DNA of 64,000 nt from positions 1 to 64,000 of the forward strand of contig JAIZVZ010000006.1 in assembly GCA_021768485.1 (NCBI GenBank). Direction: 5' to 3'. Numbering within the stretch: position 1 is the first letter of the stretch; each line of letters begins with the position of its first letter. This stretch comes from Oxalobacteraceae bacterium. GTDB lineage: Bacteria > Pseudomonadota > Gammaproteobacteria > Burkholderiales > Burkholderiaceae_D. This document shows positions 45,319 through 52,228 of the stretch, piece by piece. Position numbers and translations under genes: made by a program. Under the pieces are notes generated by a model. The model worked only from the letters and a program-made list of their open reading frames with translations. It had not been told where the DNA came from and did no database searches.

Positions 45319-47883
45319 ATGGCGATGGAAAATGATTTGACCGTGGTGGCGACGGCAGCTCCAGTCTCGGGATCTGCGCCATTAAGTGATGGGCCCAATC
45401 ATGCTGTTTTAACATCGCTTCAAGACACAATTGTGGCGCTGCAAACGATGCTCGACGCCAGCGATGCCTGCATCTATACCAAAGATGCGGCTGGCCGCTA
45501 TACCTATGTCAACCGCGCCATGCGCGCACTGCTCGGTGGCAAGCCCGACCTCGACCTCATGGCCGACGCCACCGGCTTTCCGGCGCCGGCCGTGGCGGCC
45601 CGCTTGCGCCATGACGAGCGCCGTGCGCTCGAGGATGGTTTGGTGCTCGAACATGAAGCATGCGATCTGGCGCTGGGCGGCGCGGCGGCCGACGACAGGA
45701 TTTATCGGGCAGTCACGCAACCGCTGCGCGACCGCCACGACCAGATCAGCGGTGTCGGCGCGATCATCACCGACATTACCGCTTACCGCCACGCCGACGC
45801 GGCGCTGGCCGACAATGCCGTCATGACCCGTGCGCTGCTTGACGCCATCGCCGATCAGGTTGCGGTACTCGACGCAGGCGGCGCCATTACGGCCGTGAAT
45901 GCCGCCTGGCGTCATTTCCGCCGCGATCATGACGGCGATACCGTGCTGCCGGCTGTGCCGCTCGAGGTCGGCGCCAATTATCTCGAATTATTTCACTGCA
46001 TTTCCGGCGTGGCCGCACCGCGCTCGATCGTCATGTGCGAAGGCATACAAAGCGTGCTGCAAGGCGTGCTGCCTCTGTATCAGGTCGAATATGCGCGCCA
46101 GTTCGCCGGCGAGCAGCGCTGGTTTTGCATGACCGTCTCTCCGATCGACGGCGGCCGCTCGGGCGCCATCGTCATCCATGCCAATATCACCGAACGCAAG
46201 CAGGCCGACGCCGATCGCCGTATTGCCGCGACCGCATTCCAGTCGCAGGAAGGCATCATCATTACCGATGCCGAGCGCGTGATTTTGCAGGTCAACCAGG
46301 CATTTACCACGATTACCGGCTATAGCAGCGAGGATGTGGTCGGCAAGCGGCCCAATCTGCTCAAGTCCGGGCGCCACGACGCCGCCTTTTATGCGGCGAT
46401 GGAAGACAGTATTGTCAATATGGGAAGCTGGGTCGGCGAAGTCTGGAACCGGCGCAAAAACGGCGAAATCTATCCGCAGCACCTGAGCGTGACGGCCGTG
46501 CGCGATCAGGATGGCGCGGTGGTCAATTATGTGGCGGCCCTGTCCGACATTACGGTGAGCAAGGCGGCCACCGACGAGATCGCCAGCCTGGCGTTTTACG
46601 ATCCGCTGACGCGCTTGCCGAACCGGCGCTTGCTGCTCGATCGCCTCAAGCATGCGGTGGCCGGACTGGCGCGCGATGGCAGGGTCGGCGCGGTGATGTT
46701 CATCGACCTTGATAATTTCAAGATCCTCAACGACACGCTAGGTCATCACATCGGCGATCTGTTATTGCAGCAGGCCGCACAGCGTTTGCTGCACTGCATC
46801 CGCGAAGGCGATACCGTGGCCCGTCTGGGCGGCGATGAGTTCGTGGTACTGCTCGAGAGTTTGGGCAGCAATGTGGCCGAAGCGGTGGCGCAGACGGAAG
46901 CGATTGCCCATAAAATCCTGGCCACCTTGCATAACTCGTACATGCTCAATCAGCATCACTGCTTCAGTTCCGCCAGTATCGGCGTGACCCTGTTCCACGA
47001 TGTCGAGCAGACGCCCAATGATTTGCTCAAGCAGGCCGACCTGGCCATGTATCAGGCCAAGACGCATGGCCGTAATGCCCTGCGTTTCTTCGACCAGAAA
47101 ATGCAAGACAATGTCAACGCCCGCGCCGGTCTTGAGGAAGCCTTGCGTATCGCGCTCAATGAAGAGCAATTCCAGCTGTATTACCAGATTCAGGTGGACA
47201 ACGACGGCTGCCCGATCGGGGCCGAAGCCCTGATCCGCTGGCGCAAGCCGGGCGCGGCCCTGATGACACCCGATAAATTCATTCACGTGGCCGAAGAGTC
47301 GGGACTGATTTTGCTGATCGGGCAATGGGTGCTCGATGCCGCGTGCGCCCAGTTGCGGCTCTGGCAGGGCGATCCGCGTACGCGCAACCTCGTTTTGGCG
47401 GTCAATGTCAGTGCCAAGCAATTGCGCCAAACCGACTTTGTGGCCCAGGTCCGGGCCACCGTGCAGCGCCACGCGATCGAGCCTTCGCGCCTGAAGCTGG
47501 AACTGACGGAAAGCATTTTGCTCGACCATGTCGAAGACACGATCGCAATGATGAACGAGCTGAAAAACATCGGCGTCAAATTTTCGCTCGACGACTTCGG
47601 TACCGGTTATTCATCGCTGCAATACCTGAAGCGCCTGCCGCTGGCGCAACTGAAGATCGATCAATCGTTTGTGCGCGATTTGGCAACCGACAACAGCGAC
47701 CGCGCCATCGTCCATACCATTATCGCGATGGCCAGGACGCTCAACCTCGATGTCATTGCCGAAGGTGTCGAAACGGCGCTGCAGCGGCAGATCTTGTGCG
47801 AGAAAGGCTGCCTCCATTATCAGGGCTATTTATATAGCCGGCCGGTGCCGCTGGCCACCTTCGAGAACTTGCTGTCCGATTGA
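45319..47883 (+). CDS. PAS-PAS-PAS-GGDEF-EAL cyclic-di-GMP signalling protein
   Basis: The 854-residue cytoplasmic protein has three PAS-like regions (~30-150, ~170-290, ~300-420), a GGDEF domain (GGDEF at 504-508 with an RxxD site, REGD, upstream) and an EAL domain (EAL at 636-638; ELTES; DDFGTGYSSLQYL; KIDQSFV; AEGVET). Both active sites look intact, so net activity cannot be read from sequence. No membrane helix is seen. It is preceded by an AT-rich divergent promoter region and stands alone. A second ATG two codons in (MENDL) is possible. Confidence 0.92.
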   Translation: MAMENDLTVVATAAPVSGSAPLSDGPNHAVLTSLQDTIVALQTMLDASDACIYTKDAAGRYTYVNRAMRALLGGKPDLDLMADATGFPAPAVAARLRHDERRALEDGLVLEHEACDLALGGAAADDRIYRAVTQPLRDRHDQISGVGAIITDITAYRHADAALADNAVMTRALLDAIADQVAVLDAGGAITAVNAAWRHFRRDHDGDTVLPAVPLEVGANYLELFHCISGVAAPRSIVMCEGIQSVLQGVLPLYQVEYARQFAGEQRWFCMTVSPIDGGRSGAIVIHANITERKQADADRRIAATAFQSQEGIIITDAERVILQVNQAFTTITGYSSEDVVGKRPNLLKSGRHDAAFYAAMEDSIVNMGSWVGEVWNRRKNGEIYPQHLSVTAVRDQDGAVVNYVAALSDITVSKAATDEIASLAFYDPLTRLPNRRLLLDRLKHAVAGLARDGRVGAVMFIDLDNFKILNDTLGHHIGDLLLQQAAQRLLHCIREGDTVARLGGDEFVVLLESLGSNVAEAVAQTEAIAHKILATLHNSYMLNQHHCFSSASIGVTLFHDVEQTPNDLLKQADLAMYQAKTHGRNALRFFDQKMQDNVNARAGLEEALRIALNEEQFQLYYQIQVDNDGCPIGAEALIRWRKPGAALMTPDKFIHVAEESGLILLIGQWVLDAACAQLRLWQGDPRTRNLVLAVNVSAKQLRQTDFVAQVRATVQRHAIEPSRLKLELTESILLDHVEDTIAMMNELKNIGVKFSLDDFGTGYSSLQYLKRLPLAQLKIDQSFVRDLATDNSDRAIVHTIIAMARTLNLDVIAEGVETALQRQILCEKGCLHYQGYLYSRPVPLATFENLLSD

Positions 47884-47963: not shown

Positions 47964-49940
47964 CTAGCCGGCTGGCGGCCGCGCGCCCCCGCCGAACGAA
48001 CCGAGGCTAGACATGAAGGCGCTGCGCACGATTTCCTCGAGTTGCGCCTGTGTGATTTGCCCGGCCGGAACTGCGCCCTGGATATGGGTGTCGGCGTCGG
48101 CAAAGCCCGACATCGGGCCGCTGCTGACCCTGGGCAGGCCGGCGCCGGCTTGTTGCGGCGGCAGGCCGACCGGTGCCGCCGCCTGGGCCACGATCTGGAA
48201 CAGGCGGTCGACGCGCTGGGCGCTGCGGATGGCCGGCTTGCCGGCAAATTCGGGATGGTGGGCCAGCACCATCGCCAGCAGGCCGGTGATGGCCGGCGCC
48301 GCCATCGAGGTCCCGTCCCAGGCCGCATAGCCGCCGCCGGGCACGCTGCTGATGATGGCGACGCCGGGCGCGCAAAAGCTGACCTGGGCGCCCGTACACG
48401 AAAATTTGGCGGGAAACAGGCCGCCGCTGCCGACCACGCCCGGTGACAATGTCTGCGCATGGTAGGTGTTGTCCGGGTATTCGCCTTGCTCGCCGATGGC
48501 CGTGATGCAAAATACGCCGGGTATATTGGCCGGAAATTGAATCGGTCCGCTCGAGTTGCCCGCGGCGACGACCACCGCCACGCCGGCCTGGCGCGCCGTC
48601 TCGACGACTTGCTGGATTGCTTCCGACGTCTGGTCGCCGCCGAGGCTGCAATTGACGACATCGATTTGATTGTCGATGCAGTAATGCAGCGCTGCCGCCA
48701 GATTGTTAAAGGCGCCGCCCGGAAATAATTTGAGCGAATGCACCTCGGCCTGCGGCACGAAGCCGCGGATATGGCCGTTACTGCCGTTGCCGGCGATGAC
48801 GCCGGCGCAGTGCGTGCCATGCGACATGGTATCGGTGCTCCAGCTTTGCTGGTTCGGCAAGTGCTCGTCATCGAGATTGGTATAGTCGCGTCCGATGCGC
48901 ACATGGCTCAGTGCCGGATGGGTATTGTCGCAGCCGCTATCGATGATGGCGACCTTGACGCCATGACCGGTGGCTTGCCCTATGCTGACCTTGTCGAGCC
49001 CCATCAGGCGCTGTCCCCAGCCGCAAAAGCCGCCCGCGCCATCGACCGGGTCGACGAAGCGTGCCGGCGCAAAATCGGACAGCTTTTTCAGGATCACGCT
49101 ATTGACGCCATCTTGCTGCAGGGCCGGCCGCGATGCAAAAAATTCCCAGCAGTTGGCAAACGGCTTGACGTAGATGGCAATGATATCGTTGATATAGCCG
49201 CTGTTGACCGTGATGCTGGCATTGCCGCCCTCGTCGGTGATGCCGATCGCTTCGCCGCCGGCATTGGTATAGAGGCAGATATGGGTTTGGCGCAGCGGAC
49301 TGCCGCCCGTATCCTCGACATGAAATTGCAGCGTGGTGCTGTTCATCATCACGTTCAGCGGACGCACGCCGATGCTGCCGAGTCCGGCCGGCCGCTGCAC
49401 GCCCAAATGCGCCAACAGATAGTCGCGTTCGATGATCAGGCCCGGATGCGCCAGCCCGGCCAGGAATTGATTGTCTTCGGCCTTGGTGCGCACCACCAGA
49501 ATGTCGCTGCTCACACCCATGCCGGCGCTGAGCACCGACACCGCGCTTGGCTGGATGCGCCGGACCACTTTGACGTTGGGCATCGACTGCAGTGCTTCCT
49601 GGATGCGCCCCATGTCGGGGCCGCTCTGGGCGCCGAACGGGCCGGCGGCCAGCGTCGACAAGCCGGCGCTGCGGCGCGGCGTGATCATGTATTGAACCTC
49701 GCGTTCGCCGAGGCCGTGATCGCTGTCGGCCCTGGCTGTGCTGGCCCTGGCGGCCGCCCCCGGGCGGGGGCTGGCGGCGGTCGCGCTGCCCGCCGAGTTG
49801 GCGGCCGAGTTGGTTTGACTGTTGCTGCCGGCGGCGGCGCTGTCGGCAGTCGGCCTGCCGGCCGCATCTTCGCCAGCTGCCGGGCCGGGAGCGGCGCTTT
49901 TGCGTCCTCCCTTGCTTTGATCTTTATCGATGTCGGACAT
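47964..49940 (-). CDS. Subtilisin-like (S8) serine peptidase without signal peptide
   Basis: The 658-residue protein begins MSDIDKDQSKGGRKSAAPGP. Residues ~1-78 are low-complexity Ala/Ser/Gly-rich and hydrophilic, with no signal peptide. Residues ~80-175 resemble an I9-type propeptide (VQYMITPRR; NVKVVRRI; SDILVVRTK). Residues ~190-285 look like a small beta-sandwich. The catalytic domain (~315-600) has Asp334 (IIDSGCD), His374 (SHGTHCAG) and Ser545 (GTSMAAP), with oxyanion Asn in VVAAGNSSGP. A C-terminal tail (~600-658) is Gly/Ala-rich. AAGG eight bases before the ATG supports the start. Third gene of a minus-strand unit with the I9-like and repeat proteins; location in the cell is unknown. 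Confidence 0.88.
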   Translation of the reverse strand: MSDIDKDQSKGGRKSAAPGPAAGEDAAGRPTADSAAAGSNSQTNSAANSAGSATAASPRPGAAARASTARADSDHGLGEREVQYMITPRRSAGLSTLAAGPFGAQSGPDMGRIQEALQSMPNVKVVRRIQPSAVSVLSAGMGVSSDILVVRTKAEDNQFLAGLAHPGLIIERDYLLAHLGVQRPAGLGSIGVRPLNVMMNSTTLQFHVEDTGGSPLRQTHICLYTNAGGEAIGITDEGGNASITVNSGYINDIIAIYVKPFANCWEFFASRPALQQDGVNSVILKKLSDFAPARFVDPVDGAGGFCGWGQRLMGLDKVSIGQATGHGVKVAIIDSGCDNTHPALSHVRIGRDYTNLDDEHLPNQQSWSTDTMSHGTHCAGVIAGNGSNGHIRGFVPQAEVHSLKLFPGGAFNNLAAALHYCIDNQIDVVNCSLGGDQTSEAIQQVVETARQAGVAVVVAAGNSSGPIQFPANIPGVFCITAIGEQGEYPDNTYHAQTLSPGVVGSGGLFPAKFSCTGAQVSFCAPGVAIISSVPGGGYAAWDGTSMAAPAITGLLAMVLAHHPEFAGKPAIRSAQRVDRLFQIVAQAAAPVGLPPQQAGAGLPRVSSGPMSGFADADTHIQGAVPAGQITQAQLEEIVRSAFMSSLGSFGGGARPPAG

Positions 49941-50014
49941 GACGGTACCTTTCAAATATGACAAGCGATTGCGCCGCGGCCGGCGCGCAAGCCGGCCGCG
50001 GCGGCCAGGCCGGC

Positions 50015-50257
50015 TTACAGTTGTTGCAGTCCTGCGTTGGGATCGACCATATAGCGGCTGCTCAATATCGACTGCACGCGTCCGACCTGATCGGATGGCA
50101 GTTCGATGACCACCGCCTGCGCGCCCGGATCGTTGTATTTCCAGCTGACGCCATCGATGCCTTGCAAGGCGTGCATGACGTCAGCTTGAACCTTGCCCAA
50201 ATCCTGACGGGCGGCGAGATCGCGCGAGGTGACGATGAACTCGAGAGGCTTGCTCAT
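50015..50257 (-). CDS. Free-standing I9 propeptide-like protein, probable S8 peptidase inhibitor or chaperone
   Basis: The 80-residue protein begins MSKPLEFIVTSRDLAARQDL and fits the beta-alpha-beta-beta-alpha-beta order of subtilisin propeptides: strand EFIVTSR, helix GKVQADVMHALQGI, strand VSWKYND, strand AVVIELPS, helix QVGRVQSIL, and final strand YMVDPNA where I9 domains have a YVEPD-like end. AGGAG lies eight bases before the ATG. The S8 peptidase gene starts 74 bp downstream on the same strand, and the peptidase has its own similar N-domain. Inhibitor, intermolecular chaperone or immunity-type roles are inference from fold and position; the fold call is by eye. Confidence 0.72.
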   Translation of the reverse strand: MSKPLEFIVTSRDLAARQDLGKVQADVMHALQGIDGVSWKYNDPGAQAVVIELPSDQVGRVQSILSSRYMVDPNAGLQQL

Positions 50258-50289
50258 GTTGAAGATCTCCTGATAGTGGCCTGCAATGG

Positions 50290-50326
50290 AAAAAAAGGAG
50301 GCGGCGGACCGGCGCCCGCCGCCTCC
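50290..50326 (-). terminator. Strong intrinsic terminator inside the protease gene unit
   Basis: Read on the minus strand, GGAGGCGGCGG and CCGCCGCCTCC form an 11 bp perfect GC stem with an 8-base loop, followed at once by seven T. It lies between the repeat-protein gene and the I9-like gene, in the right orientation to end the repeat-protein transcript. It could make the downstream two genes depend on read-through or a separate promoter. Confidence 0.9.
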
Positions 50327-50364
50327 CGGGCGCGGCTGCGTGAAGGTGTCTGATCGCCTCTTTG

Positions 50365-51729
50365 CTAATGAACAGTCACTTGCGAGCCTTGCTGACTACC
50401 GAGCGTCTGGTTCAGTATGGTGCCGACGATGGCCGGCAGTTGCGGCGCCAGGATGTTGGCCAGGTTTTGCGCCAGGCCGCGCAGATCGATGGCTTGCGGC
50501 GCGAATGCGCCCTGCTGCTGATTGCCCTGTTGTCCACTCCATTGCTGTGCGCCTTGCTGTATTCCTTGTTGCGCACCTTGCTGCGCACCTTGTTGCCCCC
50601 CCACTTGCGGCGTGTTCTCGAATATCGACAGGCCGGCGCCGCCGAACGGGGTATTGACGCCGAAATTGAACAGGCCTTGCGGGGCGACGCCGGCGCTGCC
50701 CTGGCGGGCGATTTGCTGCAGCTGCGGATCCGCCGACAGCAGTTGCGTCAGCAGGCCCGGCAGCGCCTGGGCGGCGCGCTGCGCCACCGATCTGAAGATG
50801 TGGCCGATATCGAAGCCCTGCGGCGCCAGCGCGCCGGCCTGCTGGTTTTGCTGAGCTTGCTGACCCGGCCATTGCTGGGCTATCTGCTGGCCGCCCAGTT
50901 GCGGCGTATTGCCGAACATCGACAGGCCGGCGCCGCCGAACGGGGTGTTGACGCCGAAATTGAACAAGCCTTGCGGATTGACGCCACCCTGCTGGGCCAG
51001 TTGCTGGACTTGCGGGTCGGCCGACAGCAACTGCGTCAACAGCCCCGGCAAGGCCTGGGCCGCGCGCTGCGCTACCGAGCGGAAGATGGAGCCCAGATCC
51101 AGGCCTTGTGCCGCGACGCCGGGTGTATTGCCCAGTGTCGACAGTCCGCCTTGCTGCGCGACTTGCTGCTGGATCTGCGGATTGGCCGACAGCAGGCCCA
51201 TCAGCAGGCCTGGCAGCGCTTGCGCGGCGCCCTGGGCAACCGTGTTGATGATGCTGCCGAAGTCGAAGCCTTGCGGTGCCACACCGCCTTGTTGCTGGGC
51301 CCAGTTTTGTTGGCCCGCGTATGCCTGTGTTCCCTGCGGCTGTGCGCCCAGCTGCGGCGTATTGCCGAACATTGACAGGCCGGCGCCGCCGAACGGCGTC
51401 TTGAGTCCGAAATTGAACAGGCTTTGCGGATTGACGCCGCCTTGCTGGGCGAGCTGTTGCTGAATCTGCGGATCGGACGACAGCAATCCCATCAGCAGCC
51501 CCGGCAAGGCCTGGGCCGCGCCCTGCGCGACGGTGCTGAGGATGCTGCCGAAATCAAACCCTTGCGGTGCGACACCTTGATGCGCGCCTTGATTGATGCC
51601 TTGATTGACGCCCTGGTTAAAATAGGCGCCGTTGGCCTGTCCCTGATACTGTGCCGGATATTGCGTTTGAGAGAAGGGATTGGCCTGTCCCTGATTTTGT
51701 CCTTGTCCTTGCGTTTGTGAGGCTAACAT
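50365..51729 (-). CDS. Glutamine-rich modular repeat protein
   Basis: No family is recognised. The 454-residue protein has no cysteine or signal peptide and opens with a Gln/Gly-rich tail (~1-52). A helical module (APQGFDFGSI, VAQGAAQALPGLL, DPQ) occurs at ~54-88, 151-185, 207-241 and 302-336, with a degenerate fifth at ~410-440. A second module (NPQSLFNFG, TPFGGAGLSMFGNTPQLG) follows at ~100-128, 251-279 and 350-378; after helical copy two only a stub (GLSTLGNTPG) remains. Gln-rich linkers separate them. AGGAG precedes the ATG. It heads the unit with the I9-like and S8 genes. Structural polymer, peptidase substrate or secreted matrix protein are all possible. Confidence 0.75.
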   Translation of the reverse strand: MLASQTQGQGQNQGQANPFSQTQYPAQYQGQANGAYFNQGVNQGINQGAHQGVAPQGFDFGSILSTVAQGAAQALPGLLMGLLSSDPQIQQQLAQQGGVNPQSLFNFGLKTPFGGAGLSMFGNTPQLGAQPQGTQAYAGQQNWAQQQGGVAPQGFDFGSIINTVAQGAAQALPGLLMGLLSANPQIQQQVAQQGGLSTLGNTPGVAAQGLDLGSIFRSVAQRAAQALPGLLTQLLSADPQVQQLAQQGGVNPQGLFNFGVNTPFGGAGLSMFGNTPQLGGQQIAQQWPGQQAQQNQQAGALAPQGFDIGHIFRSVAQRAAQALPGLLTQLLSADPQLQQIARQGSAGVAPQGLFNFGVNTPFGGAGLSIFENTPQVGGQQGAQQGAQQGIQQGAQQWSGQQGNQQQGAFAPQAIDLRGLAQNLANILAPQLPAIVGTILNQTLGSQQGSQVTVH

Positions 51730-51860
51730 GGGCGATCTCCTAAATTGGTTAGATAAAAATTTTCTTAAGTCTTGGATATCCTTTCAACGTACGACAAAAT
51801 ACGCATGCCTATGCATCGCACGACCTGAGACATAAAGACAGTACCGATGTGTGCAAGTCA

Positions 51861-51920
51861 CATGGGCCCTTACATAGGCCCTCAAATAGGCCCTCAAATA
51901 GACCCTCACATAGGCCATCC
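51861..51920. repeat. 12 bp minisatellite, five units
   Basis: Five degenerate 12 bp units start CATGGGCCCTTA, then CATAGGCCCTCA, AATAGGCCCTCA, AATAGACCCTCA and CATAGGCCATCC. They lie 130 bp upstream of the repeat-protein start, in what should be its promoter or leader. Short open frames across them on the minus strand are products of the repeat and not genes. Confidence 0.9.
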
Positions 51921-51969: not shown

Positions 51970-52047
51970 GATGCGAACACAGGATGCAAACACATGATGC
52001 AAACACATGATGCAAACACATGATGCAAACACAGGATGCGAACACAT
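51970..52047. repeat. 13 bp minisatellite, six units
   Basis: Six 13 bp units run head to tail: GATGCGAACACAG, three GATGCAAACACAT, GATGCAAACACAG and GATGCGAACACAT. The outer units differ from the inner ones in a nearly symmetric way. It sits 50 bp from the 12 bp array and upstream of the repeat-protein operon. It may be a set of protein-binding sites or a simple slippage product. Confidence 0.95.
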
Positions 52048-52228
52048 GCACTGCGTGCGAAATGAAAAGCGGCGGAAAAAAAGCGGAAAACAGCAGAAAG
52101 ACTGCAAGCCCAACAAGGTCAAGTCAGCATTTTTGCGGGTGTGGCAACACGGCTCGCCTGCCTAGCTCCTCGCGTTCCCATCATCGATGGTCCTGTGGCA
52201 GGCGACCGCCGTCATCAGACGACGTCGG

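Follow-up and report, generated by a model that had tools for sequence, protein, structure and literature searches.

What is a subtilisin-like peptidase with no visible signal peptide doing beside a free propeptide-like protein and a glutamine-rich repeat protein? The question is raised by a locus in the window, by which we mean the whole stretch of 64,000 nucleotides analysed here (positions 1 to 64,000 of contig JAIZVZ010000006.1, assembly GCA_021768485.1, from an Oxalobacteraceae bacterium). Three open reading frames (ORFs) on the minus strand encode, in order, a Gln/Gly-rich repeat protein (50365..51729; 454 amino acids, C-terminal end ...QVTVH), which is a probable substrate or payload, a free I9-like protein (50015..50257; 80 amino acids) and a leaderless S8 peptidase (47964..49940; 658 amino acids). 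An earlier note, made from the sequence alone, had described this order on one strand, and the ORF coordinates agree with it. Coding on the minus strand is supported because relatives carry the same genes in the same order. For the peptidase we take as start the ATG preceded by AAAGG; the mechanical ORF opens eight codons upstream, with a TTG at 49964. As detailed below, the three genes form a real, conserved unit, in which the peptidase has an I9-like domain of its own and the free small protein appears, by homology, to be a second copy of it.

Do the three genes belong together? We searched 294 genomes of the family, the window's own included. A peptidase relative spanning about residues 80-612 or more is present in 67 of the 293 other genomes (full-length rows counted by hand; two hold an internal stop), and 78 of the 294 match the peptidase at E 1e-20, a count that includes partial genes and other S8 enzymes; few candidates were scored per genome, so absences here are soft. 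A species genome collection was also scanned with the N-terminal region of the peptidase, and the best 80 of 146 relatives were taken as loci. These 80 loci and the 67 genomes overlap in many contigs and are not independent sets. Most of the loci come from Oxalobacteraceae (Massilia, Duganella, Rugamonas, Noviherbaspirillum, Herminiimonas, Lacisediminimonas); the others are from Azoarcus, a Xanthobacteraceae metagenome-assembled genome (MAG), a Rhodopseudomonas MAG and two Acidobacteriota MAGs. The small gene is separate and upstream of the peptidase in 71 loci, fused to it in frame in 3, not found in 3 and at a contig edge in 3. The fusions, in two Noviherbaspirillum and one acidobacterial MAG (L116, L119, L156), place the small part at the N-terminus of the peptidase. 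In 75 of the 80 loci a repeat or Gln/Gly-rich gene lies upstream, and the remaining 5 are contig edges. For 72 of these the gene was picked by rule (a PQG-bearing, Gln/Gly-rich gene) and for L174, L186 and L187 by eye; the frames of five rule-picked genes are broken or cut (L150, L152, L162, L166, L170). Applied to 2323 ORFs of at least 100 amino acids, the rule selects 73 near peptidases and 4 elsewhere. At six loci with other S8 peptidases (L100-L105), neither a separate small gene nor a repeat gene was found; three of these six peptidases hold an internal domain matched by the profile of the small family. Co-occurrence in related genomes, on which the earlier note had staked its proposal, is therefore observed.

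The small or the repeat protein, used as query, matched only the genome of the window among the 294 family genomes, because both proteins diverge fast, and the repeat protein gave no match to plasmids; these absences too are soft, with few candidates scored in each genome. Even the peptidase is patchy within genera, being found in 33 of 74 and 29 of 62 genomes of two large ones. Two neighbour families are shared by 35 loci each and a third by 33 (these three commonest we take to be efp, earP and gltX); elsewhere the neighbours differ. This pattern suggests inheritance with frequent loss rather than a mobile defence island or a universal core gene. In the two acidobacterial MAGs (L156, L174) the N-region of the peptidase is 56-59% identical to an Oxalobacteraceae one, through gene transfer or a binning error. 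The viral contig scan gave a single distant relative of this region (L192, 27% identity), on a predicted viral contig. On a Cupriavidus plasmid (L110, 2519-5948), two S8 peptidases flank a hypothetical gene, with the gene for an ATP-binding protein upstream.

What kind of peptidase is it? PF00082 matches with E 4.8e-39 (134.8 bits, cut-off 21.8), which makes it an S8 subtilase. The triad reported in the earlier note, Asp334 (codon 48939-48941), His374 (48819-48821) and Ser545 (48306-48308; ATG numbering, minus strand), is invariant across 42 aligned peptidases, and the catalytic residues are intact in all 67 non-Streptomyces rows. The subtilisin catalytic domain covers residues 303-611 (48108..49034, minus strand), Asn462 included. 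Ahead of it, the AlphaFold model (mean predicted local distance difference test score, pLDDT, 72.5; predicted template modelling score, pTM, 0.74) has a further domain, a cis I9-like propeptide at residues 80-178 (49407..49703, minus strand), assigned from the secondary structure of the model, superposition on PDB entries and homology to the small family. Residues 80-611 of the model superpose on unprocessed pro-subtilisin E (3whi_A) with Z 41.2 and a root-mean-square deviation (rmsd) of 2.2 over 339 residues in VIA, and on pro-Tk-subtilisin entries with Z 38.0-39.4 over the same range. The whole-chain Foldseek search returned mostly catalytic domains and aligned pro-subtilisin E more loosely (rmsd 6.7 for chain A and 12.7 for chain B, against 2.2 in VIA for chain A). 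In the model, then, the N-domain sits on the catalytic domain as a classical cis I9 propeptide does in a zymogen, and this domain is the one to which the small family is homologous. Pfam gave no I9 model on the window peptidase. The earlier note did not describe this domain. The free I9-like protein is therefore no stand-in for a missing propeptide, since the peptidase carries one itself, in the position known from pro-subtilisin.

Between propeptide and catalytic domain an immunoglobulin-like (Ig-like) beta-sandwich is inserted (about residues 200-286; 49083..49343, minus strand), also new with respect to the earlier note. Its strands are seen in the model; by sequence there is a sub-threshold Big_1 match in the window peptidase and a CarboxypepD_reg match, also sub-threshold, in one relative. 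Pro-subtilisin E and pro-Tk-subtilisin, which share the I9 propeptide placed on the catalytic domain, are secreted and have neither an inserted Ig-like domain nor a second propeptide gene. Bacillus-type intracellular subtilisins lack a signal peptide and have only a short N-terminal extension where the I9 domain would be; the window peptidase, leaderless yet with a full I9-like domain, is not of this type. Nor does it belong to the cyanobactin PatA/PatG maturation proteases (TIGR03895, 30.9 bits against a cut-off of 421), the QhpE maturation proteases (NF049966, 75 against 165) or the anti-phage IteS/IetS group (NCBIfam NF042956, 21.6 against 900); PADLOC, which shows no cut-offs, gave E 1.4e-7 for IetS and 1.9e-31 for a generic subtilase model.

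A hydropathy scan found no N-terminal hydrophobic stretch of signal-peptide strength in any of the three window proteins, in agreement with the earlier note. Within its first 40 residues the peptidase reaches a 12-residue maximum of -0.02 (31 peptidase relatives, -0.81 to 1.29), the repeat protein one of -0.77 and the small protein one of 0.81; for comparison, the leaders of OmpA and PelB give 2.1-2.5.

We turn to the free small protein. Its predicted fold (AlphaFold2, mean pLDDT 80.6, last three residues below 50) is beta-alpha-beta-beta-alpha-beta, the subtilisin-propeptide layout that the earlier note had recognised. This is a common superfold, and unrelated ferredoxin-like domains make up most of the Foldseek and VIA lists; the matches include Tk-subtilisin propeptides (2z56_B, E 0.036), and nothing reaches E 1e-3. 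The profile comparison is more telling: 36 small proteins against 19 peptidase N-domains give an hhalign probability of 98.8 and E 1e-16. On this sequence evidence the free protein appears to be a second copy, homologous to the propeptide of the peptidase itself. Pfam has no family for the window small protein, two small relatives or the G310 ortholog (from another genus, see below), and a profile of 40 small proteins recovered no propeptide from the PDB. The window small protein is a divergent case. The first small-family profile scored it at 0.9 bits, and a revised profile, to which three alphaproteobacterial and Azoarcus members picked partly for resemblance to the window had been added, at 7.3 bits (E 4e-4, residues 5-78). 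Together with its G310 ortholog it matches the small family at E 2.5e-4 with a probability of only 43 (hhalign, residues 47-78), and the pair gave no direct match to the N-domain profile. For the family link of this member, synteny carries much of the weight.

The tails of the small proteins may reach into the active site. With P4 and P1 assigned by eye, by alignment to subtilisin propeptide tails, Leu stands at the putative P4 in 70 of 71 and Phe at the putative P1 in 61 of 71. The tail of the window protein, VDPNAGLQQL, was placed by eye where propeptide tails enter the active site. Alignments made for modelling the natural fusions were dropped, the small proteins having aligned onto the peptidase's own N-domain or matched poorly.

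What, then, might the enzyme cut? The window repeat protein (21% Gln, 16% Gly) contains modules of 34 residues ending in LLS[AS][DN]P. Unit 1 (51469..51570, residues 54-87) reads APQGFDFGSILSTVAQGAAQALPGLLMGLLSSDP; unit 2 (51178..51279, residues 151-184) ends in LLSANP, and units 3 (51013..51114, residues 206-239) and 4 (50725..50826, residues 302-335) end in LLSADP, all on the minus strand. The modules of relatives are mostly 51-56 residues long and end in [ML]LPF-x-[AV]-D-P. At the 199 x-[AVSTI]-D-P sites of 67 repeat proteins, Phe directly precedes the site in 174, and Pro precedes that position in 191. A glycine-zipper pattern, G-x3-G-x3-G, occurs 3.73 times per module against 1.0 in shuffled sequences (162 modules, 60 proteins). 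The glycine-zipper module profile finds one module each in the Rhodopseudomonas (30.6 bits), Azoarcus (27.0) and acidobacterial (36.5) proteins, none of 500 shuffles scoring as high. The remaining modules in the two Alphaproteobacteria and Azoarcus are amphipathic helices of about 33 residues, and those of Azoarcus and the Xanthobacteraceae end in FS[AT]DP (junction LG[LIV]F/S[AT]DP).

The C-terminus of the repeat proteins is also conserved. T[LIVM]H ends 62 of the 72 rule-picked genes and none of 1946 other ORF ends, and the TVH of the window fits; among the remaining ten, five close on a different xxH, L156 and L190 show neither ending, and the frames of L150, L152 and L162 are broken or cut. 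The match of PF23195 (UBQLN1) to the window repeat protein (32.7, cut-off 27) is taken as probable low-complexity resemblance because the G310 ortholog is without it. No Pfam gasdermin model matched the repeat proteins scanned, by sequence models only, and neither the frog antimicrobial PF08023 on L186 (20.4, cut-off 22) nor the Gly-zipper matches, all below cut-off, were used as proof. Two tandem arrays lie just upstream of the repeat gene, at 51858-51916 (12-mer x4.9) and 51970-52048 (13-mer x6.1).

Between the repeat gene and the small gene is a feature that the earlier note had not described, a terminator- or attenuator-like hairpin (50296..50327, minus strand) of 14 pairs, 11 of them G-C, followed by T6. 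It is the strongest terminator-like stem of the window region, where such sites number 4 against 4.1 expected from shuffles; the folding z of the gap is -2.3. Is this gap structured in relatives as well? We folded 65 loci (the window, G310 and those 63 of the 80 in which the small gene is separate and the repeat ORF has a C-terminal His), which are related and hence not independent trials. The mean folding z is -2.65, with z < -2 in 44 of 65, whereas the gap between small gene and peptidase, used as control, has a mean z of -0.27 and z < -2 in 2 of 65. A hairpin followed by a T-run is found in 11 of 64 loci (shuffled sets: mean 0.03, maximum 1), and among the loci displayed the stem sequences vary. 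As a T-run follows in only 11 of 64, most of these hairpins would stabilise or attenuate rather than fully terminate. To judge from the sequences, the repeat protein would probably be made in excess of inhibitor and enzyme. On the other side of the unit, and convergent with it, a large protein is encoded at 45319-47883 on the plus strand, with what we take to be GGDEF and EAL signatures.

The closest relative of the window unit was found by a genus search. G310, from another genus of the same family, carries the same three genes, with a peptidase about 59-61% identical, a small protein 43% identical and a repeat protein built of the same kind of module. In the tree the two peptidases pair with a support of 100/100, and the window belongs, with G310, to a subtype of its own. 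The pair joins peptidases that lack the small gene, C176 of the window's own genome and G309b, a grouping flagged as possible long-branch attraction. The former (G000:C176:801-2444; L002, L098) is a 36% identical peptidase of the same family. More distant still are relatives on two Streptomyces plasmids (L108, 4111-6659; L109, 3946-6584), with a Q-rich gene upstream; their catalytic Ser is replaced by Thr or Ala and the oxyanion Asn by Asp, and they are apparent pseudo-enzymes.

It is tempting to hypothesize, and we lean slightly to this view, that the unit is a self-contained cassette of protease, inhibitor and substrate. The peptidase would be made without a leader, as a zymogen, its cis I9-like domain folding it and capping the active site, and the enzyme itself would probably remove that domain. 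The free protein, given its homology and conserved tail, may bind the same site in trans and silence the mature enzyme. The repeat protein would be the dedicated substrate, a series of tandem helical modules of 33-56 residues joined by Gln-rich linkers, most of which end in a conserved junction resembling a subtilisin site: [ML]LPF/xADP in most relatives, LG[LIV]F/S[AT]DP in Azoarcus and the Xanthobacteraceae and, by the same reading, LL/S[AS][DN]P in the window. The hairpin would raise the repeat protein above inhibitor and enzyme. Once the inhibitor is gone or outnumbered, the enzyme would set loose modules that may enter or perturb a membrane; membrane-active helices are our leading guess for how the cut protein acts. 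In favour of this explanation, the gene order is kept in Oxalobacteraceae, Azoarcus and two Alphaproteobacteria, and small protein and peptidase are fused in one acidobacterial MAG. It also draws on findings given above: the homology of small family and N-domain, the modelled position of that domain, the conserved tails, junctions and catalytic residues, the recurrent hairpin and the glycine zippers. Of the possibilities raised in the earlier note, the best fit is the intracellular protease accompanied by its own inhibitor and substrate, location, inhibition and cleavage being what we infer.

Several observations weigh against the cassette. Repeat gene and peptidase occur with no small gene found at L157, L164 and L174; the same holds for G309b, and in C176 no small gene separates the peptidase from the repeat-type gene upstream, which is truncated by the contig start. 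Some relatives cannot cut, because the catalytic Ser of the Streptomyces plasmid peptidases is Thr or Ala. For the small protein, Foldseek does not single out I9, and its putative P1 is not strictly matched to the repeat junctions: 4 of the 71 tails have Ser and 3 Leu there, with one each of Gln, Met and Asn, and strict covariation between inhibitor tail and cut site was looked for and not found. The window repeat protein is only marginally family-like, 5 and 20 of 500 shuffles equalling its score under two models, and the links of the window's own small and repeat proteins to their families are weaker than those of the wider family. The glycine-zipper profile misses the Xanthobacteraceae repeats (88 of 500 shuffles reach the score; the contig start truncates this gene) and two Streptomyces Q-rich proteins (430 and 66 of 500). 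In G310 the T[LIVM]H end is missing from the repeat protein and the repeat-small gap is without a hairpin (z only -0.5). Finally, the xADP motif could instead be a helix cap, not a cut site.

Is there a known system of this kind? Literature searches, made mostly without subscription papers, found no published description of the three-gene unit, in line with the earlier note. Partial likenesses exist; they are analogies, and we do not claim homology between the systems. In Plasmodium, a stand-alone propeptide-like protein, SUB1-ProM, is encoded beside subtilisin-like genes and can inhibit a subtilase, SUB1, which also has its own propeptide (PMC6993865). There the inhibition is demonstrated, whereas for the window it is proposed from homology; the system is eukaryotic and acts in the parasitophorous vacuole, and the abstract mentions no substrate gene at the locus (PMC6993865). 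In Podospora, the S8 protease HET-Q2 is reported to cut HET-Q1, probably after Phe238, activating a membrane-active partner, and genes for gasdermins and proteases are often neighbours in other fungi (PMC12881547, PMC10989679). Unlike in the window unit, the substrate is a gasdermin and het-Q1 and het-Q2 are idiomorphs at one locus; the parts of these papers that were accessible mention no free propeptide-like inhibitor (PMC12881547, PMC10989679). In Paenibacillus dendritiformis, the subtilisin DfsB releases from the precursor Slf a lethal fragment proposed to act as a cationic antimicrobial helix (PMC11896636, PMC4773401). That pair differs in being secreted and in the DinB fold of the precursor, and the accessible text mentions no three-gene unit (PMC11896636, PMC4773401).

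Other explanations have to be weighed. A polyprotein weapon or suicide device would have an abundant precursor with several membrane-active glycine-zipper or amphipathic helices, cut at its repeated junctions and freed by a cytoplasmic zymogen subtilisin, with the free second propeptide setting the trigger; we hold this only tentatively. Rather doubtful, too, is a role in assembly or storage without toxicity, in which the repeat protein is a self-assembling structural protein that the peptidase matures or quality-controls, with the small protein as chaperone-inhibitor. The Gln/Gly-rich low-complexity composition and glycine-zipper enrichment would suit such a role, as would the neighbours shared in about 35 loci and the high substrate expression that the hairpin suggests. 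Against it, the patchiness within genera described above is unlike a housekeeping structure, and no export signal was seen. Common to the assessment of this role and of an exported one is a survey by eye of the 30 most widespread listed neighbour families within about 8 kb (ORFs of at least 90 amino acids), in which no secretion or immunity gene was recognised, though a transporter encoded farther away would escape it; the lack of an immunity gene there speaks for assembly or storage. The same result, with the lack of a leader on all three proteins, makes it improbable that the unit is an exported bacteriocin-like or contact-dependent killing system of glycine-zipper type whose precursor the peptidase trims, and the secreted or contact-dependent effector of the earlier note is so far unsupported. 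Such a system would account for the glycine-zipper modules and for a hairpin between precursor and processing genes, a layout known from bacteriocin operons. It also has a precedent in the glycine-zipper proteins CdzC/CdzD of Caulobacter, which differ in having type I secretion and the immunity protein CdzI, the accessible text mentioning no subtilisin (PMC5380434); no type I secretion gene was recognised in our survey. Most unlikely is a peptidase that mainly binds or senses, with the repeat protein as partner or scaffold rather than substrate: the Streptomyces relatives, which have lost the catalytic Ser and oxyanion Asn and retain the upstream Q-rich gene, would fit, but all 67 rows from outside Streptomyces retain the triad.

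A subtilase with a cis propeptide, beside a homologous separate copy and a candidate substrate, is a ready system for studying the evolution of propeptides into trans inhibitors. Natural variants, namely the in-frame fusions and the absences of the free copy, are available for comparison, and the size of the three proteins would allow direct biochemistry. Should the repeat modules prove membrane-active, a protease-triggered effector type would be added to those of bacteria. Were the weapon or suicide device true, it would parallel the protease-activated gasdermins in function, though with an unrelated payload, and would span two bacterial phyla if the acidobacterial bins are right.

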